A DNA stretch of 37,075 bases, taken from positions 1 through 37,075 of the forward strand of contig CALDTK010000227.1 in the NCBI GenBank assembly GCA_937924035.1, in the 5' to 3' direction. This document shows, one piece after another, positions 13,162 through 35,197 of the stretch. Made by a program: the position numbers and the translations under genes. Under the pieces are notes generated by a model that worked only from the letters and a program-made list of their open reading frames with translations, did no database searches and was not told where the DNA came from. Position 1 is the first letter of the stretch; each line of letters starts with the position of its first letter. The stretch comes from an uncultured Saprospiraceae bacterium. GTDB lineage: Bacteria; Bacteroidota; Bacteroidia; Chitinophagales; Saprospiraceae.

Positions 13162-13324
13162 ACAGAGTTTCAGATACCCTATATGCATACAAGTATTAGA
13201 CCGATGTTACATATATGCGACCATTTTAGATAGATAGAGTGTTAAAGTCAGTTGACTGGTCAAAACCAATGGATTCTCTAACATAATTAGGGTATATGTA
13301 CAGGCTCTAAACCATGTAAAAACT

Positions 13325-13494: not shown

Positions 13495-15999
13495 TTAGTT
13501 TGGATCCACATCGACATTGATCCTAACAGTAGAAAAACCGCGCTCGCTATGGACATCCTGAGCAGCTGCATGAAGTTGCTTCTTTGCAAAAGAAATCAGC
13601 TTTGCATTGAGTTCGAGCTTGATCATAATGTCAAGCAAATAATATCCTCGGATCCTACTCACACTTGGAATTGCAGGGCCAATCACTCGGTCGCCTAGCT
13701 TATTTCTCAAAAAATGAGCGTAAATCTTTGCTGCTGTGTTGAGGACACTTGGTTTCTTGTGTTTTAGGGTAACCTTGATTAAGCGATGATAAGGAGGATA
13801 CTTGAACGCCTGTCTTTCCTGTATCTCACGAGCAAAAAAGCTTCCATAATCAGCTGTTCCAATCTCTTGAAGTACGGGGTGATTGGTGTCGTATGCTTGT
13901 ACCATCACGGTACCTCGTTCCTTTCCTCGGCCACTTCGCCCACTTACTTGAGTCAATAACTGAAACCCACGTTCTGAAGCTCTAAAATCTGGGTAGGAAA
14001 GTGTCATGTCCGAGTTCAGTACCCCAACTAGACCTACGTTTTCAAAATCTAATCCCTTCGTTACCATCTGGGTTCCAATTAAGACATCAACCTTGCGTTC
14101 TTCAAAATCTTGGATAATGTTGAGCAAAGCATTCTTACCCCGCACCGTGTCCAAGTCAAGTCGACTCACACGGAGCTCTGGCAAATAGACTTTCAGGTCG
14201 TCTTCCACTTTTTCGGTTCCAAAGCCCTGCATATGAAGCTTAGCACTTCCACAGGCGGGACATTCCTTGGGTATGTCCTTTGCGTAGCCGCAGTAGTGAC
14301 ATTGAAGTTTATTGGTATGCTTATGATAGGTGAGCGTCACATCGCAATGCACACATTCGCTTGACCAGCCGCAAGATTCACAACGAAGTGTAGGACTGTA
14401 GCCTCGTCGATTTTGAAATAGAATTACTTGCTTACCAGCGGCTACTGTCGCTTTAATGCCTTCAATCATCGGCAACGAGAAGTGCGATTGCATTTGCTGC
14501 TTCTTCGTCTGGTCTTTGAGGTCAATGATTTCCAATTTTGGCAGCACCGATCCACCAAAACGTTCTTTCATAGTTACAATTCCATACTTGCCCGTCTTCG
14601 TGTGGTGGAAGGTTTCAACCGCTGGAGTAGCTGTTCCTAAGAGCACTTTTGCACCATGAAGGTGCGCCAAGTATATGGCCGTATCTCTACCGTGATATCG
14701 CGGGTTAGGATCGTGTTGTTTGTAGCTACCATCGTGTTCCTCATCAACGATTACCCACTTCAAATTTTTGAACGGGAGGAATAAAGTCGAACGTGGACCA
14801 ATCAATATGGGTGCACCTGCACTTGCAGACTTATAGACTTCTACGCGTTCGTTGCTGTTGAGCTTTGAATGATATACGGCGATCTTATCACCGAACATCT
14901 TCTGCAAACGCATAATAATTTGGGTCGTGAGTGCAATTTCAGGAAGTAGATAAAGCACTTGCTCTCCACGAGCCAAGGCTGCTTGAATCACCTCGATGTA
15001 TACCCTGGTTTTACCTGATCCTGTAACACCATGCAAAAGCACTACATTCTTCTCCTCAAACTGCGTCCTTAGTTCGGTTAATGCGCTGATTTGCTGGTCA
15101 GATAAGGAGGTGATCGCATCGAGATCCTTTCCATACTTCGATATTCGACTTACCTCCTTGTCATAAAACTCAAATATCCCTTTCTGCTCAATCGCACGAG
15201 TTACAGAGCTATCTACACCTGCAATTTCTTGGATCTTAACCTTGGACACGTCCCCTTCTTTCCGTGCCTCTTGAATAAAGGCCATTAAGGCTTCTACTTG
15301 TCGGTTACTTCTACTCAGCTTGCTAAAAGCTTCATCAAGTAACTCTTCTTGATTTCGATAAGGAACCGCCAGCCGAACACATTTAACGGTCTTAGGCTTG
15401 TACTTCTCCAGCATCTCCTCTTTGAGATACAAGACTCCTTCTTCCAAAAGTTTTTTGATCAGTGGATACACGGTGTATTGACCTATGATCTTTCGAACAT
15501 CTTCAATCTTCAACTCGGCTTGTAGCGTCAATGCCTCCGCAATAAGATACTCTCGGTCATTGAGATCAGAGAAATCATCTCCATAATCCGGATTGAGCAA
15601 AATCCGGGTTTCGCTACTAAGCTTGAGGTTAGCTGGAAGAGCAGCATTCATTACCTCGCCCAGTGTACAAGCATAGTAGCTCGCCATCCATTGCCATAGC
15701 CTAAATTGTGTTTGATTGATGATCGGCTCATCGTCCATTACGTTGACGATAGCCTTTGGCGTATGACTTTTCGGTAGCTTGTCGTGAATGCCAGCTACAA
15801 TACCACTGTAAAGCTTGTTTTTCCCAAATTGAACCTCTACTCGAATACCAAACTGAACCTGATCAAGGTGCTGCTCGTCGACATAGTATGTATACGTCGG
15901 CTTGGGTGTTGCAATAGGTAGGATTACCTCCACAAATGTGTTCGTCTTGGCAATGAAGTGCTCTTCACCTACAGAACCTTCAAATATGGAGTCGGACAT
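13495..15999 (-). CDS. priA: Primosomal protein N' (replication restart helicase PriA)
   Basis: Walker A GVTGSGKTRVYIEVI, DEEHDGSYKQHDPNPRYHGRDTAIYLA, Zn-binding CESCGWSSECVHCDVTLTYHKHTNKLQCHYCGYAKDIPKECPACGSAKL, and VSGRSGRGKERGTVMVQ. Confidence 0.97.
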   Translation of the reverse strand: MSDSIFEGSVGEEHFIAKTNTFVEVILPIATPKPTYTYYVDEQHLDQVQFGIRVEVQFGKNKLYSGIVAGIHDKLPKSHTPKAIVNVMDDEPIINQTQFRLWQWMASYYACTLGEVMNAALPANLKLSSETRILLNPDYGDDFSDLNDREYLIAEALTLQAELKIEDVRKIIGQYTVYPLIKKLLEEGVLYLKEEMLEKYKPKTVKCVRLAVPYRNQEELLDEAFSKLSRSNRQVEALMAFIQEARKEGDVSKVKIQEIAGVDSSVTRAIEQKGIFEFYDKEVSRISKYGKDLDAITSLSDQQISALTELRTQFEEKNVVLLHGVTGSGKTRVYIEVIQAALARGEQVLYLLPEIALTTQIIMRLQKMFGDKIAVYHSKLNSNERVEVYKSASAGAPILIGPRSTLFLPFKNLKWVIVDEEHDGSYKQHDPNPRYHGRDTAIYLAHLHGAKVLLGTATPAVETFHHTKTGKYGIVTMKERFGGSVLPKLEIIDLKDQTKKQQMQSHFSLPMIEGIKATVAAGKQVILFQNRRGYSPTLRCESCGWSSECVHCDVTLTYHKHTNKLQCHYCGYAKDIPKECPACGSAKLHMQGFGTEKVEDDLKVYLPELRVSRLDLDTVRGKNALLNIIQDFEERKVDVLIGTQMVTKGLDFENVGLVGVLNSDMTLSYPDFRASERGFQLLTQVSGRSGRGKERGTVMVQAYDTNHPVLQEIGTADYGSFFAREIQERQAFKYPPYHRLIKVTLKHKKPSVLNTAAKIYAHFLRNKLGDRVIGPAIPSVSRIRGYYLLDIMIKLELNAKLISFAKKQLHAAAQDVHSERGFSTVRINVDVDPN

Positions 16000-16131: not shown

Positions 16132-17280
16132 GTGAATACAGCTCTACCCAAATCGCTCAATGGCCGTCTCCTTTCACTAGATGTTTTTCGTGGCCTCACG
16201 ATAGCGCTCATGGTGCTCGTCAATACCCCAGGCAGTTGGTCACATGTCTATGCGCCCTTTTTACACGCCAAGTGGCATGGGTGCACACTCACCGACCTTG
16301 TTTTTCCAAACTTTGTTTTCATCGTCGGCGTCTCCATGGCCTTCTCTTTATCCAAGTACACGGTAAACGAGAATGAACTCTCCAAAGGACCGGCTTTCGC
16401 CAAAATTTTAAAGCGGACCTGTCTTATTTTTTTAGTGGGCTTGGCCTTGAATTGGTTCCCATTTTTCCAACTCAACATTGCTGATTTAAGAATTCATGGG
16501 GTTTTGCAACGTATTGCACTGGCTTATGGCCTTGCTGCTAGTATTTGTGTTCTGCTTCCGCCAAAACATTGGTTAACTGCCGCAATAAGCTTGGCAGCGG
16601 CATACTGGGGCATACTCGTACTCGGGGCTGATACAGATACAGCATTTACATTGGAAGGGAACTTCAAGCGCACGCTTGATTTAGTAACGGTAGGAGAAAA
16701 TCACATGTACGGTGGCTTTGGAATTCCGTTCGATCCAGAAGGACTAATCGGTTTGATCTCAGCCGCAGCTACTGCGCTATTAGGTGCTTTCGCAGGACAT
16801 CTAATCCGCTCGCAAGCCTCCAAACTTCAAGCAGTGAAGAAGTTGCTCATCATGGGATTCGCGCTCACGATTTTTGGTCAGCTATTAGACCTTGCTATTC
16901 CAATCAATAAGCCACTTTGGACAAGTAGTTACGTTATGTATGCAGGGGGAATCGCCGCGGTTGTACTAGGTCTTTTGCTCTATCTCGTTGATGTCAAATC
17001 TTGGAAAGGGTGGACTTCTCCGTTCGTTCACTTGGGGACAAACCCGTTGATCGTTTATGTCTTCTCGGGTGTAATCGTGCGTATAATGCTTTATATCACC
17101 CGGTGGACAACCAGCGCTGGAGAGGTGACAAACCTGTACGCTTTCTTATGGGACAATGTGTACGCCGCGTTCATTTCACCCCCCAAACTCGCTTCACTCA
17201 TGTTTGCTTTGAGCATCGTCTTCTTATGCTGGGCATTTGCATTTAGCTTATACAAGAAACAAATATTCATTAAGCTCTAA
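16132..17280 (+). CDS. Multi-pass membrane acyltransferase, DUF5009 / heparan-alpha-glucosaminide N-acetyltransferase-like (NagX-type)
   Basis: GTG start; LLSLDVFRGLTIALMVLVNTPGSW..HAKWHGCTLTDLVFPNFVFIVGVSMAFSL and GVLQRIALAYGLAA are hallmark motifs; about 10 TM segments. Confidence 0.88.
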   Translation: MNTALPKSLNGRLLSLDVFRGLTIALMVLVNTPGSWSHVYAPFLHAKWHGCTLTDLVFPNFVFIVGVSMAFSLSKYTVNENELSKGPAFAKILKRTCLIFLVGLALNWFPFFQLNIADLRIHGVLQRIALAYGLAASICVLLPPKHWLTAAISLAAAYWGILVLGADTDTAFTLEGNFKRTLDLVTVGENHMYGGFGIPFDPEGLIGLISAAATALLGAFAGHLIRSQASKLQAVKKLLIMGFALTIFGQLLDLAIPINKPLWTSSYVMYAGGIAAVVLGLLLYLVDVKSWKGWTSPFVHLGTNPLIVYVFSGVIVRIMLYITRWTTSAGEVTNLYAFLWDNVYAAFISPPKLASLMFALSIVFLCWAFAFSLYKKQIFIKL

Positions 17281-17286
17281 AAGTGA

Positions 17287-18186
17287 CTAGCCATATACCT
17301 CTTGGGCCACTCGAAAGGTGTTCGCATGTGCATCTACAATAGTAGCAAGCCGCTCTGTGTAGCCACCGCCCATACTCACTGCTACTGGAAGGTTTCTCTG
17401 ATGACATGCTTGTAAAACCAGTCGGTCTCTTTCCCTGCAGCCTTGAGTTGTAAGACTTAGTCTTCCAAGTTTGTCAGCTGCAAGTACATCTACTCCCGAC
17501 AAATAGAAGACCATGTCGGGCTGCTGTTCATCTAGCACCTTTGGTATAATACGAGCGACTTCATTCAGGTAAAATTCATCTTCTGTTTTATCCTCGAAAC
17601 CAAGGTCTAAATCGCTCGTCATTTTACGGGTAGGGTAGTTGCGAGCTCCGTGAAAGCTGAGGGTATAAACGTTTGGATTATGCTCAAATAGCTTCGCCGT
17701 ACCATTGCCTTGGTGCACATCAAGGTCGATAACTACCGCTTTCGAGATTTCGCCACTCGAGAGCAGCACGTTAGCTGCAATGGCGATATCATTAAAGACG
17801 CAAAAGCCTTCTCCTCGATCTGCAAAACTGTGGTGAGTGCCACCTGCAATATTTAGTGCTACACCGTCCTTCACGGCATATCGAGCACAAGCCAGGGTAC
17901 CTTGGGCGATATGCAATCCACGTTCAACAAGTTTTAGCGAAAGCGGAAAACCAATATCCCTGATCTCTTTTCTGGATAAGTCTTGAGCTTGAAGCTTTCG
18001 CCAAAACTCCTCCGTATGTGTAAGAAGCAGCTCTTGTTGAGTGAGCTTTTCAGGGGCAAAAAAGGAAGCCTTCGTAACCGTGCCTTCATAGAGCAATTGC
18101 TCTGGAAGCAGGTCATACTTCGCCATCGGGAATCGATGTTTTGGCGGAAGCTTATAATGGTAAATAGGGGAAAATGCGATGCGCAT
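17287..18186 (-). CDS. Histone deacetylase / AcuC / acetylpolyamine amidohydrolase family protein
   Basis: GGTHHSFADRGEGFCVFNDIAIAANVLL..VVIDLDVHQGNGTAKLF and MGGGYTERLATIVDAH: class I HDAC-fold signature with His-His and DLDVHQGNGT. Confidence 0.93.
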   Translation of the reverse strand: MRIAFSPIYHYKLPPKHRFPMAKYDLLPEQLLYEGTVTKASFFAPEKLTQQELLLTHTEEFWRKLQAQDLSRKEIRDIGFPLSLKLVERGLHIAQGTLACARYAVKDGVALNIAGGTHHSFADRGEGFCVFNDIAIAANVLLSSGEISKAVVIDLDVHQGNGTAKLFEHNPNVYTLSFHGARNYPTRKMTSDLDLGFEDKTEDEFYLNEVARIIPKVLDEQQPDMVFYLSGVDVLAADKLGRLSLTTQGCRERDRLVLQACHQRNLPVAVSMGGGYTERLATIVDAHANTFRVAQEVYG

Positions 18187-18210: not shown

Positions 18211-21200
18211 TTAGCGGATTAACGTCACATCTCCTGAGAAGGTCTGTACCGTACCATTTTTGAAAAGGACCTCTGCCACTACAACAAAAACTGCTGGATT
18301 CATATCCCTATCTCGGAACGTTCCATCCCATCCAAATAATTCGTCTCCAGGCAAAAAGCCTCCCGATTGGTGCATCAGAATTCCCCAGCGATCAAACACC
18401 ATAAAGGATTCAATACGTTCGACCTCTGGGCCTCCAAATGGTAGAATTCTGTCATTGACACCGTCACCATTTGGGCTAAACGCAGTTGGAAGGAAGATAT
18501 CCGCAAGTGGGTTTACTCTAACAAATACACGATCTCGAACTTCACAACCTTCTATGGTATAAGCGATTGCTTCGTACTCGATATCAAAAGGAGGCGAGAC
18601 AAGCACGCGCTCACATGTATCACAATCCATAAATTGGCCAGGCAACCACCTGATTGAGTCGAGCGTGTTAGGGAGATCAAGGAAGATTCTTGCCGTATCA
18701 CCCAGGTTAATGTCAATAGTGTCAAAACGAATAATGTCGTAAAAAACAGGGTCGTCAATCGTAATTAACGTGCTTTGATCACATCCATTTTCTTGAATCA
18801 ACTGAAATACATATGTCCCTGCCTCTAGGTTGTCAAAGCTGAAATCAGGTGAGGTTACAGGGTCTAAACCTGGTAAGTCAAACCGGAATTGGGCATTCAT
18901 TGGAAGCTGATCAAGGGAGATTGAAATGCTTCCTTCACCATCAGGACAAATTGGATCAATCGAAGAAAGTGTGTACGCCAACGTATCTCCTTCTACAACA
19001 TCAACATTTGCCGAAGAAGTACAGCCCAAGTCATCCGTAATCGTTACAGAGTAGCTTCCTTGACCGACATCAGAAATAGTACTCGTGGTATCTCCAGTTG
19101 ACCAATCGAAAGAATATGGTCCGACACCGTTTCCTGTTTGAACAGCAATCGAAGCAACCGTATTCTCGCCGCAAGCAGTAAATACACCAGACAGCGGTAA
19201 AGGAATATCAGCGTTGAGTTGAGATACTTGTGGTGAATAGCTCACTTGACGAGGACTGGCTTCGGCACAACCTCCTGAAGTAGCGATCAAGTTACTTAGC
19301 CTGAAAGAGAAGCCACTAGTAGCAGGAAAAGACAAGGTGTTATCTCCAACAGGAAGTGTTGTTGATCCACTAGGGTTACCGTTCACAAAAAGATCGCCTT
19401 GTACTGGTCTTGTGCCTTCTACTCGCACCGTCACTTCGATGTCTGAACCTGCACAATAAGTAGGATCTCCGATGATGGACACTTCTGGTTCCCTTAAGAA
19501 CTCAAGTTCAACATTAACGATACTATCGCATCCATTGCGAGCTCGAAGAATAGAAGTTCCTGTCGGATTCAACTGATCGAAAACACGGTTTCCAACCACA
19601 AGGCTGTCACCAAAGCAAATTGTATCTCTCAGCAGAGAATCCGAAGGTGGAAGTACCATCAAAGCCACTCGATAAGTCGTATCGCAAGTAGTCGCACCAA
19701 CGGTAAAGGTGTCAGAAGGATTACTCGCATTGAAGGTCTGGCCACCAATCACAAGTGAGTCATTATTGCAGATCACATCTGTTCGATCTATTGTAGTGCC
19801 GCCTCCAGTAGAAAAGTTGACAGTTACGTTGACGATCGTATCACAGCTTGCGCCAAAACCCATTAGGGTATGAGAGCCTGTATTGCTTGTTTGCGTGTAA
19901 GTGTTGCCTGCAATTGTGACAACTGTACCGCTACAAACCGTTGTGTCTAAAGGAATGAATTGGGTTTGTCCCAATTGAATCAAGCGCAGTGGACTTTCGT
20001 CAAAACAAGTTGAGCTGATGCCTCCACTACCGTCGTTTTCTCCTGCAAGGCTCGAAATGTATACGTTTCCGCTTGTAAGCCCGAGTGCACCTAAATCAAT
20101 TGGAAGACTCGGGAATCGTCCGATCTCAATCGTTCCTGCTGCATCGCTGTAAACGACAAAAACTTGAAGATCGTTAGCGCCTAAACTTGCATCATTATTG
20201 AAGCTCGCATCCGTGATATAATTATCACAAAGCAAAAGAGGGCTAGTGTTGAAGGTGCCTGGGAATGGTGCTACACAAGGGCTAGAGCAATCATAGGATA
20301 CGACCTCATTCACTGGGCCACAGTTCTGAGCATCATCAAACATGAAATTAGCCGTACTACCTGTGGCTAGTGGACCAGCACTAAATACTGACGCACTGCT
20401 AAAGCTGCCGGCAAATCCTGACATTTGAGTGTAAGGAGCCCATCCTCCAGTTATTGTTATGTCTACTGTGTATGAATTTTGGGCGGCGTTACAAACTGGC
20501 GTTCCAACACTAATAGACATTGGAGCAGCCCAGGTTACTTGAATCGAATTACTCTGAGATCGACAGTTGTCAAGAGCCGAAACTCCTCCAGAACCATCGT
20601 CATTTCCAGCGAGAGCATAAACAAAGAGCGATTGGCCAAACAAGCCAACCGGAGCATTAAACTGGACATCAAGTCGTTGTTCTAGGAATCCATTGTCAGG
20701 ATTAGTGTCATCGTCAAGAAAGTAGAACAGTACATCGTCTCCATCATTGACAAATCCTGATACGCCGGCATTCACAAGCTGATCTGTCGAGCATAGCTGA
20801 TATGGTCCACCGGAAAGGCTCCCAGCATCAGTAGTGCAGTTGATAGAAGAACAAGTGTGAGAAATGTCAACCGTAATTGGAGCATTACACGTAGCTGCAT
20901 CATCGATGATGACGCTAGAATTTGTGCCACTCACCAAACCGGTGATTGTTAAAACTGATCCTACAAGTGTTCCTAATGAAGTCGTGATAGTGCCGTTGTT
21001 TGGTGTTGTCGTAACGCTAATAGTAGCGATATACGTCTGTCCGTCTGGGGCACAAGTGAATGTAGGCTGTCCAACCGACAAAGTCGAGACTCCTACCACA
21101 TCAAAGGTGAATTGAGCTGCAGAGTAACATCCCCCTTGCGGCGTAAAGGTTACTTGGTCTGGGCCTGAAGTATTGCTCGGTGTATATACCCCAGAACTTG

Positions 21201-24200
21201 TAATGCTACTGCCTGACCAAGATCCCATCGCAAAAGAAGGATCGAGCTGTGTACTTAGGTTAATTGGGCCTGTTCCAGCACATACCGTGTCCGTAAAAAT
21301 ACCGACGGTTGTTAACGGGCTTATTTGAAGCGATGTTGAAACAGGATCGGTAGCGCATCCTCCACTTGGTGGCGTGTAAGTAAGCATGAAATTCCCTGCT
21401 CCTATTGCTGTTGGATCAAGCTGATTACTTGAAACTCCTGGTCCTGTCCATGTACCACCCGGAGCCGCAGAAGGATCTTGTGTCGTCAAGTCAATAATAC
21501 CAGCATCAATACAATAAGACAATACGGGAAGTGTAAGCGTAATGCTTGAGCTCACAGAGACAGTAATCGTAGTTGGGTTGGTACACCCTCCGACTGGCGT
21601 ATAAATGATTCGATAGTTCCCTGCTGCTACAGCCGAAGGATCAAAGCTGTTGCCGCTTACGTTCGCGCCTGACCATGTACCTCCTCCATAAGGTGAAGGA
21701 ACTAAGGCATCGAGGTTTATCACAGGTGAGGTGGTGCAGACAAATTGATCCGCGATGGTTGGGGTACCTGAAACTTGAACCGTCACCTGGATCATCGTTG
21801 GTAGTGCGCAAACGCCAGATGCTGGTGTAAACGTTAAGCCGTAAGTGCCCGATGCTACGTTGGGTGCATCAAATTGACCAGCAGCAACTCCAGGGCCACT
21901 CCATGTTCCAGCTATAGTTACTCCATTAAGCATCATATCTAGACCAAACGCTGGAGTTCCAGCGCAAATGATGGTATCTCTTCCTGAAGTAGGAGCAGCT
22001 AGGAATACAGTAATATCTGTCGTACTCGCTTGAGCACAAGCCGTTGAAGGAGTAAACGTAAGGGTGTAATCAGAAGGGGGAAGACCAGCCGCGCTGAAGG
22101 TGGTGCCTGTTACATTGGTACCACTCCAAGTTCCAGTTGGAAATGCAGCGTCTTGAAGTGTTGTCAGATCTATGGTTTCAGTCTCGCACAGTGTAGCTGT
22201 TGCTAAAACAGGCGTTCCACTTGCTGAAACCGTTACAGCTACTGATGCCGCTGACGCGCAACCTGTAGGTGTAAAAGTTAAGATGCGAACTCCCGTTGAA
22301 CCTATAGAAGGATCTAACATGGTTCCAACAACTCCAACCCCAGACCAGGTGCCTGTAGGATATGCTGGATCGCTAATTGTGCTTAGATCGAGCGGGTTAT
22401 CTGTTTCACACAACGATACTGGGGTGAGTACAGGAGTTCCTCCTTGGGTGACTTCTATCGTAGTTGAAGCTGGGCTTAAGCAAGCGCCTGTTGGTGTAAA
22501 GGTCACGTTATGTGTTCCAACACCCACGAGAGAAGGATCAAAGAATGACCCACTTACACCTGCCCCTGTCCAAGCTCCACTAGAGAAAGCTGGATCCTGA
22601 ATATTGAACAAATCGTACAAGCCATCTGAGATACAAATAGTAGCAGTGCCAAGGGTTGGAGAACCACCCGCGCTTATGGTTATTGTAGAGGTACCCGGTA
22701 AGGTGCAACCTCCCGCTGGCGGAGTGTAGGTCACCGTATAATTACCGCTTGCGCTAGGTCCAGCGTCAAAGGAATTACCTGCCACATTAGCTCCTGACCA
22801 GCTTCCACCTGGAGCTGCTGGATCTTCAAGGCTAGCTAAATTGTAAGGTTGTTCACTCGCACAGATTGTAACATCCAGCGGTTGAGCGGTTCCTGCACCT
22901 GTCACAGTGACGTTAGTTGTAACTTGATTAACGCAACCTCCAGAGATAGTATAGGTTAGTGTGAAACTTCCCGTTCCCGCTGTTGTAGGATTAAAAAATC
23001 CAGCAGAAACACTTGGTCCTGACCATACTCCGCCCGTAAACAAAGGATCTTCTAGTGTAGTAAGGTCTAATGGAGCGTCAGCTACACAAAGTGTTGCTTG
23101 AGATAGCGTTGGTGTTGAAGCATTAGATACTGTAATACTTGTTGTTGCTGCACTTAGGCAACTTCCTGTAGGCGTGAAGGTGACATTGTGTGTTCCTACT
23201 CCAACGATCGTTGGATCAAAGAATGAACCACTCACTCCTACACCTGTCCAAGTTCCACTAGAATAAGCTGGATCTTGAATATTGAAGAGATCATAAAGAC
23301 CTGCGGTTAGGCATATAGTAGCCATCCCTAAGGTTGGTGAGCCGCTTGCACTAACCGTAATAGTCGCTGTTCCTGGCGTTGCACAACCTCCTGCTGGAGG
23401 TGTATAAGTGACCGTATAATTTCCACTAGCGCTAGGTCCAGCATCGAAAGTTGAACCAGTGACGTTAGCACCAGACCATGTTCCACCCGTTGCTGCAGGG
23501 TCTTCGAAAGGCGTCAAGTTTAGTGGTTGATCTGAAGCACAAATGGTAGCATCTAACGGTTGTGCTGGACCTGCTGCAGTGACGGTGATTGTTGTGTTCA
23601 CCGTAGAGGCACAACTTCCAGCAGTGGGCGTGAATGTTACGCTAATAGGACCAGTGCCAGCGGTCGAAGGATTAAAATTTGAACCAATTACTCCCGGTCC
23701 CGACCATGTCCCGTTCGGATAAGCAGGATCGACTAAAGCCGTTAAATCAAAAGCAGGATCTGTTTGACACAGAGTTGTACTGCCTAATACAGGTGTATTT
23801 GTTGAGGTAACAGAGATCGTTGTTGAGGATGGTCCTTCACAAGAACCTCCACCACTTGGCGTAAAGGTGACCGTTGCAGGTCCTACACCGGCACTGCTTG
23901 GGTTAAAGAAAGAGCCCGAAACTCCAGTACCAGCCCAAGTACCCGTTGGGAAGCTAGGGTCTTCTAAGGTGGTTAAATCAAATAGTGGATCATTCAAACA
24001 GAGCGTAGCAGTTCCTAGAACAGGAGATGTTTGACCAGTGACATTGATGCTTGTGTTGGTTGCTATTGCACATTGGCCAGCAGGGGGAGTGTAGGTAATT
24101 GTTGTACTACCTAAGCCAGCAACCGCAGGATTAAAGAGCCCACCACTAACTCCAGGTCCTGACCAGGTTCCACCAGGCCAAGATGGGTCTTCTAAACCTA

Positions 24201-26463
24201 CCAAAGCAAAAGCTGGGTCTGAAATACAAAGTGTCGTTGTTCCCAAATTCGCATTCACGGCGGGGACAACATTTATGGAAGTAGTCTCAGATCTATAACA
24301 CTGCCCAGGGGTGGGGGTAAAAGTGATTGTGTAACTCCCCAATGGTACACTCGCTGGATCGAAAAAGCCTCCTGAAACTCCTGTTCCAGTCCACGTTCCA
24401 GTAGGGAATCCTCCAACCACTAGGGTTGAAAGATCAATAGGAGAGTTGGATACACAAGCTGTTGCCGTTGCAAGTGATGGTGTGGAAGGGGCGTTTACTG
24501 TAATCGTGCTTGTGCCTGGAAGTAAACAACTAGCTCCGCCAGCCGGAGGCGTATAAGTCACTGAGTAACTGCCGGAAGCTGTCGGACCAGCATCAAACGA
24601 AGAGCCCAAAACGTTTAGCCCAGACCAAGTACCACCAGGAGCAGCAGGGTCTTCTAATGATGTCAAATTATAGGGCTGATCAGTTGCACAGATGGTAGCA
24701 TCTAGTGGCATAGCATTGCCACCTGCCTGCACGGTAATCGTCACCATCTCAGGTGAAAAGCATCCTGAATTTGGAGTGAACGTAAAAACATACTGAGCGC
24801 CTACACCTCCAATCGCTGGAGCATTAAATGTTGAAGGCAATGTCAAGTTTGGACCAGACCAGTCGCCTGACGGTGATGAAGGGCTTAGTAAATTATCTAA
24901 ATCATAGGTGGTTGGACCACAAAGCACAGGCGGAGTCCCAAGTGTTATAGGCGTCGGTGCGTTTATGGTAATAGTGGACGTTCCAGGTGTCAAGCATCCA
25001 CCTGCTGGCGGTGTGTACGTGACAGTGTAAGGTCCCGATGCGGTAGAACCTGCATCGAACATGGTTCCAGAAACAAAAGTCCCCGACCAGCTTCCTCCTG
25101 GAGCAGCTGGATCTTCTAACGAGGTAAGATCAATTGGCTGATCTAAAGAGCAGGCCGTGAAATCAAGTGGCATCGCCGCAGCCGAGTTTGTGGCTGTGAC
25201 TGAAGCAGAACCCAGCAAACTTGCTGGACAGCTAGTACCCCCAACACTCAATAGCGCTATCGCATATGTACCAGCACTTGCTGGTGTAAATGGAATTGTA
25301 TAAGGATTGTCAGAGGTTGTCACCTGAGGCTGCGGAACTCCTGCGATACTGTAGGTGAACGAATATGGCGGAGAGGCTATTCCTGAAAAGCTTACTTGAA
25401 TGCTGCTGGTTGGGCTGCCAGCACAGACTGTTTCACTTCCCGAAAGGGTTACCTCTGGGCACTCGACAAAAAGACTTAAGTCACCAACTCCAGTTTGTGG
25501 GGGACAACCTGCAACGGGAGGAGCCACCACTGCGCTGTAGTATTGTTGACCACATTCGTTTGCAGTAATACTTACGTTAAGTGGATCTATCGTAACCGAA
25601 GCTACGGGAACAGTAGGCGGAGCAGGTATGAAAGGAGTCCCATTACATGGCGCAGGGAAATTTACACCTAAAAGAGTCCAACCAGCAGTCAACACATTAT
25701 TCCCAGTACTACCAGTGTAAGTAAGTGACTGGTTTGGTCCTGGGCAACCAAAGTCGGCCATGTAGGTATTTGAACCGCCATTGGAAAAAGCCCCAGGAAC
25801 TGTTGTTCCAAGTATTCTTGTACAGCTGTTCTGGAAAATATAAATAGGAAAGCCTAGAGCGCACAGCCCCGAAAAATCAAAGTTGATATCTGCCTCACTA
25901 CTAGTAAATACAAGTACGAAAGCATTTGCAGGAACCACAGTGGAAGGACCTGCATAAACCACACACCCTCCGGCGACACTTACCGTTGGAGTCGCGAGTA
26001 GAGGGCATGGCCCAAGTGTGCCAATATTAGCAGTAGTTGGCGATCCAAGATCGTTTACCTCGACACCTAAGTCTGAGCCATTAAAACCGCCCGCACTCCA
26101 AATGAGCATGGCCTCGTTCTCTTCACTACCATTACTTGGATTGTTTCCATTGCAAGGGTTGACAAGACCGCCGAGAACAACAGGTGGATTAGAACATGGA
26201 GCAGATGAACCAACAATTTGCGCCGAACCCACATACGTTCCTTGAGAAAGTGGATCAAAACCTGAGGTCGATCCTGAGTACCAATCAACAGTTTGAGCAC
26301 CAGGAATCAAGTTGGTACCATCGGCCATCGTTAAAGTAACAACATCACCAATACAGGCTTGATTAGTTGAAATTGCAGGACCAGTCAATGTGGGGCATTG
26401 ACCTTGAACCATAGTTGTTGCAACAACTATGGTAAACAGGCAAAAAAGCATGTGCTTCAACAT
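18211..26463 (-). CDS. Giant T9SS-exported surface protein with 18 'GTWSGPGV' repeats, three GCDS-type repeats, one SprB-like repeat and a type B C-terminal domain
   Basis: ORF 18211..26517; the Met at 26463 gives signal peptide MLKHMLFCLFTIVVATTMVQGQ. C terminus DIFLPTAFSPNGDGVNDRILPFGGPEVERIESFMVFDRWGILMHQSGG...WDGTFRDRDMNPAVFVVVAEVLFKNGTVQTFSGDVTLIR is a gliding-motility-associated CTD. Confidence 0.93.
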   Translation of the reverse strand: MLKHMLFCLFTIVVATTMVQGQCPTLTGPAISTNQACIGDVVTLTMADGTNLIPGAQTVDWYSGSTSGFDPLSQGTYVGSAQIVGSSAPCSNPPVVLGGLVNPCNGNNPSNGSEENEAMLIWSAGGFNGSDLGVEVNDLGSPTTANIGTLGPCPLLATPTVSVAGGCVVYAGPSTVVPANAFVLVFTSSEADINFDFSGLCALGFPIYIFQNSCTRILGTTVPGAFSNGGSNTYMADFGCPGPNQSLTYTGSTGNNVLTAGWTLLGVNFPAPCNGTPFIPAPPTVPVASVTIDPLNVSITANECGQQYYSAVVAPPVAGCPPQTGVGDLSLFVECPEVTLSGSETVCAGSPTSSIQVSFSGIASPPYSFTYSIAGVPQPQVTTSDNPYTIPFTPASAGTYAIALLSVGGTSCPASLLGSASVTATNSAAAMPLDFTACSLDQPIDLTSLEDPAAPGGSWSGTFVSGTMFDAGSTASGPYTVTYTPPAGGCLTPGTSTITINAPTPITLGTPPVLCGPTTYDLDNLLSPSSPSGDWSGPNLTLPSTFNAPAIGGVGAQYVFTFTPNSGCFSPEMVTITVQAGGNAMPLDATICATDQPYNLTSLEDPAAPGGTWSGLNVLGSSFDAGPTASGSYSVTYTPPAGGASCLLPGTSTITVNAPSTPSLATATACVSNSPIDLSTLVVGGFPTGTWTGTGVSGGFFDPASVPLGSYTITFTPTPGQCYRSETTSINVVPAVNANLGTTTLCISDPAFALVGLEDPSWPGGTWSGPGVSGGLFNPAVAGLGSTTITYTPPAGQCAIATNTSINVTGQTSPVLGTATLCLNDPLFDLTTLEDPSFPTGTWAGTGVSGSFFNPSSAGVGPATVTFTPSGGGSCEGPSSTTISVTSTNTPVLGSTTLCQTDPAFDLTALVDPAYPNGTWSGPGVIGSNFNPSTAGTGPISVTFTPTAGSCASTVNTTITVTAAGPAQPLDATICASDQPLNLTPFEDPAATGGTWSGANVTGSTFDAGPSASGNYTVTYTPPAGGCATPGTATITVSASGSPTLGMATICLTAGLYDLFNIQDPAYSSGTWTGVGVSGSFFDPTIVGVGTHNVTFTPTGSCLSAATTSITVSNASTPTLSQATLCVADAPLDLTTLEDPLFTGGVWSGPSVSAGFFNPTTAGTGSFTLTYTISGGCVNQVTTNVTVTGAGTAQPLDVTICASEQPYNLASLEDPAAPGGSWSGANVAGNSFDAGPSASGNYTVTYTPPAGGCTLPGTSTITISAGGSPTLGTATICISDGLYDLFNIQDPAFSSGAWTGAGVSGSFFDPSLVGVGTHNVTFTPTGACLSPASTTIEVTQGGTPVLTPVSLCETDNPLDLSTISDPAYPTGTWSGVGVVGTMLDPSIGSTGVRILTFTPTGCASAASVAVTVSASGTPVLATATLCETETIDLTTLQDAAFPTGTWSGTNVTGTTFSAAGLPPSDYTLTFTPSTACAQASTTDITVFLAAPTSGRDTIICAGTPAFGLDMMLNGVTIAGTWSGPGVAAGQFDAPNVASGTYGLTFTPASGVCALPTMIQVTVQVSGTPTIADQFVCTTSPVINLDALVPSPYGGGTWSGANVSGNSFDPSAVAAGNYRIIYTPVGGCTNPTTITVSVSSSITLTLPVLSYCIDAGIIDLTTQDPSAAPGGTWTGPGVSSNQLDPTAIGAGNFMLTYTPPSGGCATDPVSTSLQISPLTTVGIFTDTVCAGTGPINLSTQLDPSFAMGSWSGSSITSSGVYTPSNTSGPDQVTFTPQGGCYSAAQFTFDVVGVSTLSVGQPTFTCAPDGQTYIATISVTTTPNNGTITTSLGTLVGSVLTITGLVSGTNSSVIIDDAATCNAPITVDISHTCSSINCTTDAGSLSGGPYQLCSTDQLVNAGVSGFVNDGDDVLFYFLDDDTNPDNGFLEQRLDVQFNAPVGLFGQSLFVYALAGNDDGSGGVSALDNCRSQSNSIQVTWAAPMSISVGTPVCNAAQNSYTVDITITGGWAPYTQMSGFAGSFSSASVFSAGPLATGSTANFMFDDAQNCGPVNEVVSYDCSSPCVAPFPGTFNTSPLLLCDNYITDASFNNDASLGANDLQVFVVYSDAAGTIEIGRFPSLPIDLGALGLTSGNVYISSLAGENDGSGGISSTCFDESPLRLIQLGQTQFIPLDTTVCSGTVVTIAGNTYTQTSNTGSHTLMGFGASCDTIVNVTVNFSTGGGTTIDRTDVICNNDSLVIGGQTFNASNPSDTFTVGATTCDTTYRVALMVLPPSDSLLRDTICFGDSLVVGNRVFDQLNPTGTSILRARNGCDSIVNVELEFLREPEVSIIGDPTYCAGSDIEVTVRVEGTRPVQGDLFVNGNPSGSTTLPVGDNTLSFPATSGFSFRLSNLIATSGGCAEASPRQVSYSPQVSQLNADIPLPLSGVFTACGENTVASIAVQTGNGVGPYSFDWSTGDTTSTISDVGQGSYSVTITDDLGCTSSANVDVVEGDTLAYTLSSIDPICPDGEGSISISLDQLPMNAQFRFDLPGLDPVTSPDFSFDNLEAGTYVFQLIQENGCDQSTLITIDDPVFYDIIRFDTIDINLGDTARIFLDLPNTLDSIRWLPGQFMDCDTCERVLVSPPFDIEYEAIAYTIEGCEVRDRVFVRVNPLADIFLPTAFSPNGDGVNDRILPFGGPEVERIESFMVFDRWGILMHQSGGFLPGDELFGWDGTFRDRDMNPAVFVVVAEVLFKNGTVQTFSGDVTLIR
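19490..19960 (-). repeat. Three GCDS-type repeats, the same module found 14x in the other giant protein
   Basis: TTVCSGTVVTIAGNTYTQ...ASCDTIVNVTVNF / VICNNDSLVIGGQTF...TTCDTTYRVALMV / TICFGDSLVVGNRVFDQ...NGCDSIVNVELEF. Confidence 0.8.
21100..25200 (-). repeat. 18 tandem ~75-80 aa repeats, core [G]xWxGxxVxGxxFxPxxxGxGxxxxTxTPxxGxC
   Basis: WSG/WTG/WAG cores counted in the translation: GSWSGTFV, GDWSGPNL, GTWSGLNV, GTWTGTGV, GTWSGPGV, GTWAGTGV, GTWSGPGV, GTWSGANV, GTWTGVGV, GVWSGPSV, GSWSGANV, GAWTGAGV, GTWSGVGV, GTWSGTNV, GTWSGPGV, GTWSGANV, GTWTGPGV, GSWSGSSI. Confidence 0.9.
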
Positions 26464-26740
26464 AGGCAGTACTACACTGAGTAGTTGGCTTTGGGAGGTT
26501 CTGCAAAGTACAAACATACTAGTACGCCGGGGCAGTCCATGAATAGGGTAGGTTTTGGCTTTGTTAGCTTTTTCAACGCTTTATAACAATTCCGCTCCAT
26601 TCGCATAGGAGTGCTACCTGTTTTCTGAGGTTTCAAGACCTTTTTTTGCTTCGTTGAATATTAAACCGTGGATAAATTTTAGAAGAAAGAATGTACTAGG
26701 TCGCCGAGGCCTCATCAACTACATTCGCGTTCTCAACGTT

Positions 26741-26785
26741 TTGCTTTCGCCAAAACCGCTTTAACCTTGGTTTTGGCGAAAGCAA
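26741..26785. repeat. Perfect inverted repeat (17-bp stem, 11-nt loop) built from two convergent copies of the interspersed 14-mer
   Basis: TTGCTTTCGCCAAAACC gctttaacctt GGTTTTGGCGAAAGCAA, read directly; a third copy variant (gttttagcgaaagc) follows at 26791..26804. Confidence 0.97.
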
Positions 26786-26842
26786 GACACGTTTTAGCGA
26801 AAGCTATAAGGCTCTCATAAAAGGGCGAAAACTTATTCAAAC

Positions 26843-28363
26843 ATGAGCGATACGACATTGACTGAACAAGAAATTGTACGCCGCGACAACCTCCAGAAAA
26901 TAGAGGAGGCTGGTATCAATCCATTCCCACCGGAAGCTTTTCCTCCTACGCACTTTGCGTCTGAGATTAAAGCAGATTTTACGGAGGAAAAAGCGGAAGC
27001 ATTCAAAGAGGTTCGCCTCACAGGTCGTGTCATGAATAAACGCGTTATGGGAAAAGCTAGCTTCTTGGAGCTGCAAGATTCCTCTGGGCGTATTCAGCTG
27101 TATGTAAGTCGCGATGACATTGCGCCCGGCGAAGACAAAACGCTCTATAACACCGTTGTTAAAAAGCTTCTCGATATCGGCGATTTCGTGGGCGTCGAAG
27201 GGTTTGTCTTTACGACACGTGTAGGTGAAACAACCGTTCACGTAAAGAATTTCAAGTTCCTTGGTAAGTCACTTCGCCCGTTGCCCATCGTAAAGCGCGA
27301 TGAGGACGGGAATGTCTATGATGCATTCACGGATCCAGAATTACGCTACCGGATGAGATACGTTGATCTCACGGTGAACCCACAATTCAGAGAGATTTTC
27401 GTGAAGCGAAACAAGCTTGTTAGGACAATCCAAAGCTTCCTCGATGAACGCGGAATCATGGAGGTAGAAACACCAATTCTGCAGCCTATTCATGGTGGTG
27501 CAGCAGCGCGCCCGTTTGCAACGCATCACAACACACTCGACATGCCGCTCTTTATGCGAATTGCCAATGAGTTGTACCTCAAACGACTAATCGTTGCAGG
27601 CTTCGATGGCGTTTACGAAATTGGAAAGATGTTCCGTAACGAGGGGATGGACCGCACCCATAATCCTGAGTTTACGATGATGGAAATCTATGTAGCCTAC
27701 CAAGACTACAATTGGATGATGGACATGACCGAGACGCTGCTCAGCGAGGTGGCTACTGCGGTTACTGGTAACACAACCGTCAACTATCAAGGAACTGAAA
27801 TCGACTTTGCTGGGCCTTATGCGCGACTCCCAATCTTGGATGCAATCAAGATTCACGGTGGGGTAGATGTCAGCGAAATGGACGAGGAAGGTCTTCGTGT
27901 TGTATGCAAGGAGAAAGGCATTCATCCGGACAAAACATGGGGTTACGGCAAGCTGATCGATGAGCTTTTCGGCGAACTAGCAGAGGCCAAATTGATTCAG
28001 CCGACGTTCGTTACGGATTATCCCGTAGAGATGAGCCCTCTAACCAAAAAGCACCGAACAAAGGAAGGCTTGGTTGAGCGTTTCGAGCTTTTCATCAAGG
28101 GGAAAGAAGTTGCTAATGCATACACAGAGCTCAACGATCCTATCGTTCAACGTGAGCGTTTTGAAGATCAACTCAAGCTTGCTGCTCGTGGCGACGATGA
28201 GGCTATGGTTTTAGATGAAGACTTCCTTCGCGCCTTGGAATACGGTATGCCGCCAACCACAGGTATCGGTATCGGCATCGATCGTCTTACCATGTTAATG
28301 ACTGATCAGGTGAGTATTCAGGAAGTATTGTTCTTCCCTCAGATGCGGAAGGAGGGGGAGTAG
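26843..28363 (+). CDS. lysS: Lysyl-tRNA synthetase, class II
   Basis: RRDNLQKIEEAGINPFPPEAF, FLDERGIMEVETPILQPIHGGAAARPF, FEIG-type YEIGKMFRNEGMDRTHNPEFTMMEIY, GIGIGIDRLTMLMTDQVSIQEVLFFPQMR. Confidence 0.97.
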   Translation: MSDTTLTEQEIVRRDNLQKIEEAGINPFPPEAFPPTHFASEIKADFTEEKAEAFKEVRLTGRVMNKRVMGKASFLELQDSSGRIQLYVSRDDIAPGEDKTLYNTVVKKLLDIGDFVGVEGFVFTTRVGETTVHVKNFKFLGKSLRPLPIVKRDEDGNVYDAFTDPELRYRMRYVDLTVNPQFREIFVKRNKLVRTIQSFLDERGIMEVETPILQPIHGGAAARPFATHHNTLDMPLFMRIANELYLKRLIVAGFDGVYEIGKMFRNEGMDRTHNPEFTMMEIYVAYQDYNWMMDMTETLLSEVATAVTGNTTVNYQGTEIDFAGPYARLPILDAIKIHGGVDVSEMDEEGLRVVCKEKGIHPDKTWGYGKLIDELFGELAEAKLIQPTFVTDYPVEMSPLTKKHRTKEGLVERFELFIKGKEVANAYTELNDPIVQRERFEDQLKLAARGDDEAMVLDEDFLRALEYGMPPTTGIGIGIDRLTMLMTDQVSIQEVLFFPQMRKEGE

Positions 28364-29036: not shown

Positions 29037-30348
29037 ATTGCTTGATCTTTCTGTAAAGAGTACGTTCAGAGATTCCTAAATCTTCAGCTGCTTCTCTTCG
29101 GCGATTATTGTGTTTATCAAGCGCTTTTTTGATCATTGATTTCTCCATGTCTTCCAAAGAAAGAGACTCTTCGACAACCTCTGCAGTACTGTCGTAATGG
29201 AAGTTGTCTGGATTGTCAATCAAGATTGCACCTGAGGATTCAAATGATCCAGCTTGCTTATTTGGGATGGGTGTTGGACTATTCCCAAAGTTGCGTTGCT
29301 GAATGACTGGAGTAGAACTCTCTGCTGCTATAGCGCGTAGCCTAGGCATATCGCTGTCTTCAAGGTGTTCTAATTGCGCTCTACTGACACGAAGGTTGTT
29401 GTTGCTGATCAACTCACTCAGTACGCCCTTGAGTTCATTCAGGTCGCTTTTCATGTCAAATAACAAACGATAGAGGATGTCTCGATCGCCCATTCCTGCT
29501 GTACTTCCTCCTGCATCAGGATCACCACCATTGAACTGGTGCTGTTTTGCCGGAAGGTGACGTTCACGAAGCTTTGGGATGAAATTATAAAGCTTCTCTG
29601 CATCAATGTTCCTTTCGGTGGACATGACGCTCAGCTGTTCGGCCATGTTGCGGAGTTCACGCACATTACCAGGCCATGCATAGTTTTCTATCACCAGTCG
29701 CGCAGAATCGTCTAAACGTACCGGATCAGTTCTATACCGCTCTGAAAAGTCGAGCGCGAATTTGCGGAAAAGTAGGAATATGTCTTGTCGGCGTTCACTC
29801 AAAGACGGTACGCGGATCGGGACAGTATTGAGGCGATAGAATAGGTCTTCCCGAAACTTGTTCTTGCGAACGCGTGAGAGCAAGTCTACGTTGGTTGCCG
29901 CTACGACGCGCACATTTGTTTTACGAGGCTTACTCGAGCCAACACGAAGGAATTCACCCGTCTCTAATACACGTAGTAAGTATGCTTGCGTGTCAAGCGG
30001 CATTTCTCCGATCTCATCTAAGAAAATGGTGCCTCCGTCAACGGTTTCGAAGTACCCTTTACGGTCGTTCATCGCTCCTGTAAAGGCACCTTTATCGTGT
30101 CCGAATAGCTCTGAGTTGATTGTACCTGAAGGAATTGCGCCACAGTTTACGGCAATGATCGGGTTATGCTTTCTGGGCGAGAGCTGATGGATAATCTGGC
30201 TAAAACTCTCTTTTCCGACACCACTTTCTCCTTGTACCAACACCGTAAGGTCTGTCGGTGCCACGCGCATCGCCGTATCGATTGCACGTTCTAGATCTGG
30301 CGAGGTGCCAATGATCCCAAAGCGTTGTTTCACTCCCTGTAACGTCAT
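29026..30348 (-). CDS. Sigma-54-interacting transcriptional regulator (AAA+ and Fis-type HTH, no receiver domain)
   Basis: GESGVGKESFSQIIHQLS, ELFGHDKGAFTGAMNDRKGYFE, GGTIFLDEIGEMPLDTQAYLLRVLE, ENYAWPGNVRELRN; C-terminal NNRRREAAEDLGISERTLYRKIKQY. Confidence 0.96.
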   Translation of the reverse strand: MTLQGVKQRFGIIGTSPDLERAIDTAMRVAPTDLTVLVQGESGVGKESFSQIIHQLSPRKHNPIIAVNCGAIPSGTINSELFGHDKGAFTGAMNDRKGYFETVDGGTIFLDEIGEMPLDTQAYLLRVLETGEFLRVGSSKPRKTNVRVVAATNVDLLSRVRKNKFREDLFYRLNTVPIRVPSLSERRQDIFLLFRKFALDFSERYRTDPVRLDDSARLVIENYAWPGNVRELRNMAEQLSVMSTERNIDAEKLYNFIPKLRERHLPAKQHQFNGGDPDAGGSTAGMGDRDILYRLLFDMKSDLNELKGVLSELISNNNLRVSRAQLEHLEDSDMPRLRAIAAESSTPVIQQRNFGNSPTPIPNKQAGSFESSGAILIDNPDNFHYDSTAEVVEESLSLEDMEKSMIKKALDKHNNRRREAAEDLGISERTLYRKIKQYDI

Positions 30349-33559: not shown

Positions 33560-35197
33560 ATGATGTTCGAAGATTGGAGCAGTGGTTACTTCATTGGTTT
33601 TGCCTTGAGCGCCCTAGCTCTTGGTGTCTGGAATGCCGCAGAAAAGAAATCAATCGTTGCGCGAAATGCCCCTTTTGTCATTTTTGCTGGACTCACACTC
33701 TACATCACGAGTGTGGTTAGCCTGCAAGGAGCACCTGGCGAACGGCTCTTCATTGTTGCACGAGATTTACTGACGCAGGCAGCAATTGCGTACATGATTC
33801 GTATGCTTTCGCAAAAACCGAAAATGCTAGTGCCTGCAGCTGTTGTTGTACTGCTAGGCTATTGGTTTTTTTACCGAGAAGTGCAAGAAGAATCCATACT
33901 TGCACTTTCACCTGATCAAGTGGAGCTTTCAGCCGATCAAGCGAATATTACGTCTTCATTTAAATCAGGCTTAGCTCCAAATGGTGAACTCTTTGTTACT
34001 TTTTACGAAGGTTGGGACGGTAAAGAGGTTCGTGATCAGTTTTCAGCTCTAGGCCTTTCGGTAAAACCTGCATTTTCCGATCTCGATGATGCCTGTGCAA
34101 CTTGTGATCCGAATGTAGTTAGTGAATTGAAGAACACATTGCTCGTTGACATACCTGATGACAAAGAAGCTGAAATTGAGTCTTTCCTATCAGCTTTCGC
34201 CAAAACAGATGTTAGCTACGCTGAGCAAAATGAGATTTTGGAGTTTGAACCCTTGAGGTCTACTCCTTTGACTGGGCAATCAGAATTTTTGATTGAACCA
34301 CCTGCAAAGCCTAGTGATCTCGGGTTGAATGATCCTGAAGTTGTCCGCCAGTGGTCCTTGGTAGCTTGGCCGTATAAAGCTTTCGCCAAAACAAGCGCTA
34401 AACTCTCCAAACGTCTGCAGCCAGCAACGCTTTTTGTGCTTGACAGTGGAGTAGATGCTACCCACCCAGATATCAAAGGCAACTATAAAAGCTATAACGC
34501 AAAGCATGATCGTGATGGACTTGGACATGGTACGCATGTTGCCGGAATTGCTGCTGCTGTAGCCAATAATAAGGAAGGTATTGCCGGATGGTGGCCTCAA
34601 GGTGATCACCCCATTAAGGTGTCTTCTATTCGAGTCATTGGTCCTTTTGGAGCAGCTACTCAACAGGCTGTTGTTCAAGGAATCATTAATGCCGCAAACG
34701 AAGGCGCAGCAGTAATCAACCTTTCCTTAGGTGGGCTGAGTACCGATTCCAAACAGCGCATATACGCCAACGCGGTCAAATACGCGAACGAGCGTGGTAC
34801 GATCGTCGTTGTAGCTGCTGGCAACTCAAGCATGGACGCTCGTCGTTATGCCCCAGCCAATACACCTGGCGTTATAGCTGTGGCTGCACTTGACAATACG
34901 CTTTCCCAAGCTTCCTTTTCAAACTCTGTAGACGGACTAGAAATGGGAGTGTGGGCTCCTGGAAAAGACATTCATAGTCTCGTTCCAAATGCAGGATACA
35001 CTCCTTTTAGTGGAACGAGTATGGCAGCTCCTCAAGTTGCTGGTATCCTCACGTTAGCCAAGTCAATTAGACCAGAACTCACTACTCGAGAAGCTTATCA
35101 GATGCTTAATAATTCGTTACAGCAACAGGTGCAAGGCACGCGTGATGCTCCGGACGTTTTAGACCCAGGCGCCTTTCTCGAAGAAGTCAGTAAGTAG
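33560..35197 (+). CDS. Membrane-anchored S8 (subtilisin-like) serine peptidase with N-terminal TM region and I9-like propeptide
   Basis: Catalytic D (FVLDSGVDATHPDIKG), H (GLGHGTHVAGIAAAVA), S (PFSGTSMAAPQVAGI), plus VVVAAGNSS; about 3 hydrophobic segments in the first ~110 aa; propeptide-like end DVSYAEQNEILEFEP. Confidence 0.93.
   Translation: MMFEDWSSGYFIGFALSALALGVWNAAEKKSIVARNAPFVIFAGLTLYITSVVSLQGAPGERLFIVARDLLTQAAIAYMIRMLSQKPKMLVPAAVVVLLGYWFFYREVQEESILALSPDQVELSADQANITSSFKSGLAPNGELFVTFYEGWDGKEVRDQFSALGLSVKPAFSDLDDACATCDPNVVSELKNTLLVDIPDDKEAEIESFLSAFAKTDVSYAEQNEILEFEPLRSTPLTGQSEFLIEPPAKPSDLGLNDPEVVRQWSLVAWPYKAFAKTSAKLSKRLQPATLFVLDSGVDATHPDIKGNYKSYNAKHDRDGLGHGTHVAGIAAAVANNKEGIAGWWPQGDHPIKVSSIRVIGPFGAATQQAVVQGIINAANEGAAVINLSLGGLSTDSKQRIYANAVKYANERGTIVVVAAGNSSMDARRYAPANTPGVIAVAALDNTLSQASFSNSVDGLEMGVWAPGKDIHSLVPNAGYTPFSGTSMAAPQVAGILTLAKSIRPELTTREAYQMLNNSLQQQVQGTRDAPDVLDPGAFLEEVSK

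Follow-up and report, generated by a model that had tools for sequence, protein, structure and literature searches.

Upstream of lysS, in the genome of an uncultured Saprospiraceae bacterium, three copies of a short motif are clustered and two of them face each other in a long perfect hairpin. The question raised by this locus is whether the cluster serves the adjacent gene or belongs to a signal dispersed through the genome. We examined it within the 37,075-nucleotide stretch of DNA that carries it (the window), in the remainder of the genome, in the one congener and across the family.

The cluster beside lysS

The initial annotation had described a perfect 17-bp hairpin followed by a third motif copy. 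This description proved exact and its coordinates were confirmed: the arms lie at 26741-26757 and 26769-26785, pair without a mismatch and enclose an 11-nt loop, and the third copy ends 38 nt upstream of the lysS ATG (Table 1). Compared with shuffled sequences, the folding of the cluster strand has a z-score of -6.2. By name, the best matches of lysS belong to Saprospiraceae. The divergent giant protein has no Pfam match other than its weak CHU_C match, and its gene probably starts near 26464, not at 26517. The cluster had also been called the only intergenic occurrence of the motif in the window. The intergenic position of 26741-26804 holds, while its uniqueness is doubtful because the copy at 1570-1583 is covered only by a questionable 107-aa ORF and may be intergenic as well.

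Table 1. Motif copies and neighbouring features in the window.
Feature	Position	Strand	Basis
Motif copy, possibly intergenic	1570-1583	+	window motif count
Motif copy inside gene 5797-13188	7576-7589	-	window motif count
Motif with swapped outer pair, GTTTTACCGAAAGG	7623-7636	+	window motif count
Motif copy	8237-8250	-	window motif count
PriA primosomal helicase	13495-15999	-	
Motif copy	16554-16567	-	window motif count
Three motif copies (17931 +, 17994 -, 18138 +) inside histone-deacetylase-family gene	17931-18151	.	
Divergent gene, ~2750-aa protein, weak C-terminal CHU_C (type IX secretion) match below family cut-off	18211-26464	-	start inferred
Two motif copies, the second GTTTTGACGAAAGT with A-T outer pair	19846-20006	-	window motif count
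TATGTTTG, candidate Bacteroidota -7 promoter box of the divergent gene	26511-26518	-	consensus match only
Perfect inverted repeat, two facing motif copies, 17-bp arms, 11-nt loop	26741-26785	.	reverse-complement and fold check
Motif copy 1, GTTTTGGCGAAAGC	26743-26756	-	motif count in window
Motif copy 2, GTTTTGGCGAAAGC	26770-26783	+	motif count in window
Motif copy 3, GTTTTAGCGAAAGC, differing from GTTTTGGCGAAAGC only at the free sixth base	26791-26804	+	
lysS, lysyl-tRNA synthetase class II	26843-28363	+	
Motif with swapped outer pair, GTTTTGCCGGAAGG	29544-29557	+	window motif count
Four motif copies in subtilase gene, one of them GTTTTACCGAAAGG	33805-34392	-	window motif count

A regulatory role for the hairpin in lysS expression had been proposed, and it could then act as an attenuator in the 5' UTR, as an operator or as an insulator between the divergent genes. 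Such a role would agree with the very stable RNA fold located 57 nt upstream of the start codon, and a few other pairs likewise stand upstream of genes, such as one at L162 that is kept in the congener. Yet up to 330 bp of DNA 5' of lysS from about 110 further loci, for some of which only a short stretch was available, lacked the motif, those of G027, G029 and G062 from motif-bearing genera included, which led us to reject a lysS-specific leader; a search of the congener assembly found no lysS. No T-run accompanies the pair on either strand, so an intrinsic terminator of the canonical kind was rejected, and no plus-strand ORF of at least 80 aa, a possible client of a terminator, lies directly upstream of it. 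The cluster contains no sigma-70 promoter match, and Rfam returned only chance-level matches to it, below gathering scores. Elsewhere the same motif adjoins many unrelated genes and mostly lies inside genes. A search for other inverted pairs, suggested as a check by the initial annotation, found 23 of them in the two genomes, beside unrelated genes and usually just 3' of a stop codon. The proposal is thus unsupported and we regard a lysS regulatory element as very improbable; the cluster may have a local side effect on lysS. The three copies in it are ordinary representatives of a motif found genome-wide and happen to share one spacer.

A dispersed motif that can fold on one strand

The 13-mer TTTTGGCGAAAGC is present in 566 exact copies in the 4.11-Mb assembly (268 and 298 on the two strands), against none for a reversed-pattern control, and in 525 copies in the congener. 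Within the window, 19 copies were counted with at most two mismatches where 1.3 are expected. Extrapolation from samples of about 0.46 Mb of the genome and 0.58 Mb of the congener yields motif totals of 1,872 and 1,485, respectively, which are perhaps somewhat high since the sampled contigs were chosen from those with listed motif matches or pairs.

Variants collected in the sampled stretches of both genomes define the consensus GTTTT-N-XC-GNAA-GX'. Its outer bases X and X' can form a Watson-Crick pair at 185 of 191 sites in the genome and at 261 of 268 in the congener, compared with 61% and 58% if they varied independently. One tally for the genome comprises 143 G-C, 30 C-G, 11 A-T and 1 T-A pairs, the congener 196, 41, 23 and 1, and the exceptions are mostly G-T (3/6 and 5/7). 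All 18 window sites satisfy this pairing, which also holds at 77/83 and 51/57 sites in two other genera with different leaders. The inner, loop-closing C-G pair is nearly invariant, and the GNAA loop is free at its second base (GAAA 310, GTAA 58, GGAA 53, GCAA 46, with GACA at 10). A weaker covariation links positions 5 and 14 in zero-based numbering (chi2 99.6, p 2e-17), as an optional third pair. Because the outer pair was switched at none of 54 orthologous sites, the covariation is one across sites and not along a lineage.

The motif is a mini-hairpin on one DNA strand, made of a two-pair stem and a GNAA loop preceded by a 5' GTTTT leader. That its ends change together means that a single strand can fold into this tiny structure, and suggests that the motif labels self-DNA and is recognised on one strand, perhaps in DNA uptake. 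With the DNA parameters of ViennaRNA, the mini-hairpin reaches only about -1.8 kcal/mol, and on the tested bases the stem is lengthened by pairing with the A-rich 3' flank. Its special stability is taken not from this fold but from published work on single-stranded mini-hairpins of the d(GCGAAAGC) class, which are very stable and nuclease-resistant and need a GNA or GNNA loop on G-C pairs (PMC4686876).

The motif is enriched 1.9- to 2.0-fold in non-coding DNA; about 80% of its copies are nonetheless intragenic. There they are found in all reading frames and without orientation bias (81 sense and 86 antisense in the genome, 98 and 117 in the congener). Together with the non-coding excess, this balance indicates a signal in DNA and not in RNA. 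Neighbouring sites alternate in orientation more often than after permutation (67% versus 53 +/- 3.6% in the genome, 61% versus 52 +/- 3.1% in the congener), and gaps between sites of the same strand are more even, with coefficients of variation of 0.70 versus 0.85 and 0.72 versus 0.90. Each strand therefore appears to require its own sites, at intervals of about 4 kb, and this would suit single-strand reading. The strands are roughly balanced in nearly all sampled stretches, and no orientation domains appear in the sampled contigs.

Conservation, facing pairs and dialects

In the congener, with which about 128 kb were aligned at 76.5% identity, the orthologous position still holds an intact motif for 54 of 64 sites; in a first count, 46 of 56 were kept, compared with 6.7% of control 14-mers. 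These are the meaningful figures, because the fixed positions belong to the definition of a match and the 16 differences among the 54 intact sites necessarily fall at the two free positions. Where only one of the two genomes has a site, a single substitution accounts for the difference in six cases and alignment gaps are involved in four, a pattern from which the motif appears to arise mainly by point mutation. Selection or drive acting on DNA, not on RNA, is the best explanation for its maintenance. In one spacer between co-directional genes (L031:1300-1800 and L153:1245-1745), one single motif and one facing pair match perfectly between the two species, while the spacer sequence around them has diverged; from the look of the coding end, we take this spacer to be that of rpoB-rpoC.

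Facing pairs separated by 2-32 nt number 12 in the genome, where 5.4 are expected (p 0.01), and 11 in the congener, where 3.9 are expected (p 0.003). The counts come from whole-genome pattern searches only, not from the samples, and the expectations from local motif densities. Pairs in the opposite order, sought with a somewhat stricter pattern, number one and zero. Being about two- to threefold, the excess makes pairs a modest elaboration of the motif and not the main story. Nearly all the pairs examined are intergenic, most of them within 60 nt 3' of a stop codon, and all five pairs for which the orthologous region was available are also paired in the congener. Two pairs between convergent genes bear T-tails. 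One convergent-gene pair with a T-tail is orthologous between the two species (L158:1182-1218 and L159:1501-1537) and has inner stem extensions that differ yet stay complementary (CCGA..TCGG versus CCTA..TAGG), and for this reason it looks like a true terminator. The pair at L162:1501-1529, between two divergent ORFs, is almost loopless.

Across 347 family genomes, TTTNGCGAAAGC is at background level in most genera, numbers in the hundreds in several, and also varies between members of a genus. The G027 dialect has a TTTTN leader and uses all four outer pairs (36 G-C, 27 C-G, 6 A-T, 8 T-A), whereas that of G029 has a TTTN leader, often ATTTG, with 25 C-G and 23 G-C pairs. Across genera, then, the leader varies and the covarying GNAA hairpin is constant. 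Two genomes with background counts inside motif-rich genera, G274 and G343 (the latter only 70% complete), are suited to finding genes lost with the motif. In 40 kb of G007:C5 (L244-L245), GTCGGCCGAC is found in 16 copies and CTCGTCCGCCGA-type words in 8, and these may represent a different repeat. No description of a comparable motif from Saprospiraceae was found in the literature searched.

A putative self-DNA label among known systems

Beyond the observed anatomy, covariation, conservation, spacing and dialects, we infer single-stranded DNA as the recognised form, a link to transformation and the identity of a reader. We give about even odds that the motif is a strand-specific self-DNA label, read as a single-stranded hairpin and probably in transformation. 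The signal would act once strands have separated: a protein or nuclease barrier would recognise leader and hairpin on the single strand imported or processed in natural transformation, and the strand carrying them would be preferentially bound, or would resist nucleases, during import or processing. Motif-carrying fragments would be favoured, and such a drive could let sites accumulate on both strands until each carried about one per 4 kb. Facing pairs would then form long hairpins, tolerated or used between genes and sometimes recruited as terminators. The broader proposition, a genome-wide and strand-specific self-DNA code of Bacteroidota, written as a single-stranded mini-hairpin in genus dialects and read on the imported or resected strand as a structural signal for uptake or recombination, falls just short of an even chance.

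The main rival to a self-DNA label is a Chi-like recombination signal, read on single-stranded DNA by the end-resection machinery and placed on both strands every few kilobases, where either side of a break would meet one. Chi sites are similarly strand-specific and a few kilobases apart, and the strand-specific even spacing of the motif, its conservation at orthologous sites and its single-strand character all agree with such a role. However, Chi is not known to have a hairpin, facing pairs or intergenic excess, patchy presence within genera is not among its traits, and we know of no hairpin covariation in it; the lack of orientation domains in the sampled contigs may also speak against a Chi-like role, although the orientation bias of Chi itself varies by species. 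We consider this explanation unlikely. Even spacing and conservation could likewise reflect a duplex-DNA binding site of a nucleoid, segregation or chromosome-organising protein, but a covariation of X and X' that uses G-C, C-G and A-T is hard to obtain from base reading in a duplex, and the motif is patchily present even inside genera, which makes such a site improbable.

That GNAA belongs to the GNRA-class loops would recommend a tetraloop acting in transcripts, a reading largely refuted by the missing sense-strand preference in genes; moreover, GNGA loops, equally good in RNA, are almost absent, and an RNA-level signal is hardly credible. Just as hard to credit are REP- or REPIN-like mobile hairpins that a Y1 (RAYT) transposase would move. 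The motif shares with them a single-stranded hairpin with a 5' tail and facing pairs, REPINs being inverted doublets (PMC3116915), and seven Y1 transposase matches were detected in the genome. Unlike the extragenic REPs, it is mostly intragenic, its gains and losses are mainly substitutions with few gaps, and Y1 transposases are missing from G029, a complete genome that bears the motif. RAYT as the mover was rejected based on this genome and on the placement of the copies.

The preferred reading, a self-DNA label, places the motif beside the uptake sequences DUS and USS, with which the initial annotation had already compared it. Copy number, intragenic and intergenic placement, strand balance, pairs and orthologous conservation all bear this comparison out. 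As in DUS and USS, near-identical copies are very numerous, lie in and between genes on both strands with a non-coding excess, turn over by point mutation, are conserved at orthologous positions, form facing pairs in a preferred order and differ between lineages as dialects. USS, like the motif, have an A-rich 3' flank. ComEC does not discriminate here because 32 of 33 family genomes encode it, whether motif-bearing or motif-poor. To our knowledge, convincing uptake sequences come from two proteobacterial families, and neither a hairpin with a covarying stem nor even spacing on each strand is known for DUS or USS. A strong DUS-like motif in Saprospiraceae would add a further phylum to their range. 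The covarying stem of the motif implies a reader that sees a folded single strand, which would narrow the search for a DNA receptor or processing factor, and strand choice in transformation would become directly testable through the hairpin motif.

Within Bacteroidota, the transformation of Riemerella proceeds by way of ComEC, DprA and further proteins whose function is unknown (PMC8459023). A preference for own DNA is described in R. columbina, and a k-mer search in Flavobacteriaceae proposed candidates, among them AAAAATAAAA, without settling what they do (PMC7965970). In its two-pair stem and GNNA loop, the Saprospiraceae motif resembles the d(GCGAAAGC)-type mini-hairpin, known as a chemical oddity or aptamer part, whereas the motif carries a fixed leader and constitutes a conserved signal dispersed in the genome. 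It resembles the USS of Pasteurellaceae in copy number, absence of orientation bias and non-coding excess, but USS are described as non-palindromic and not notably evenly spaced (PMC1939737), while the motif is evenly spaced on each strand and its core folds. With the DUS of Neisseriaceae it shares a short sequence repeated many times in and between genes, genus dialects (PMC3630211) and order-biased facing pairs, partly used as terminators (PMC1852404). The two differ in phylum and in the form of DNA that seems to be read: recognition of the Neisseria DUS, whose receptor is a type IV minor pilin, mainly requires double-stranded DNA (PMC12061091), whereas the motif of this bacteroidotal family points to a single strand.
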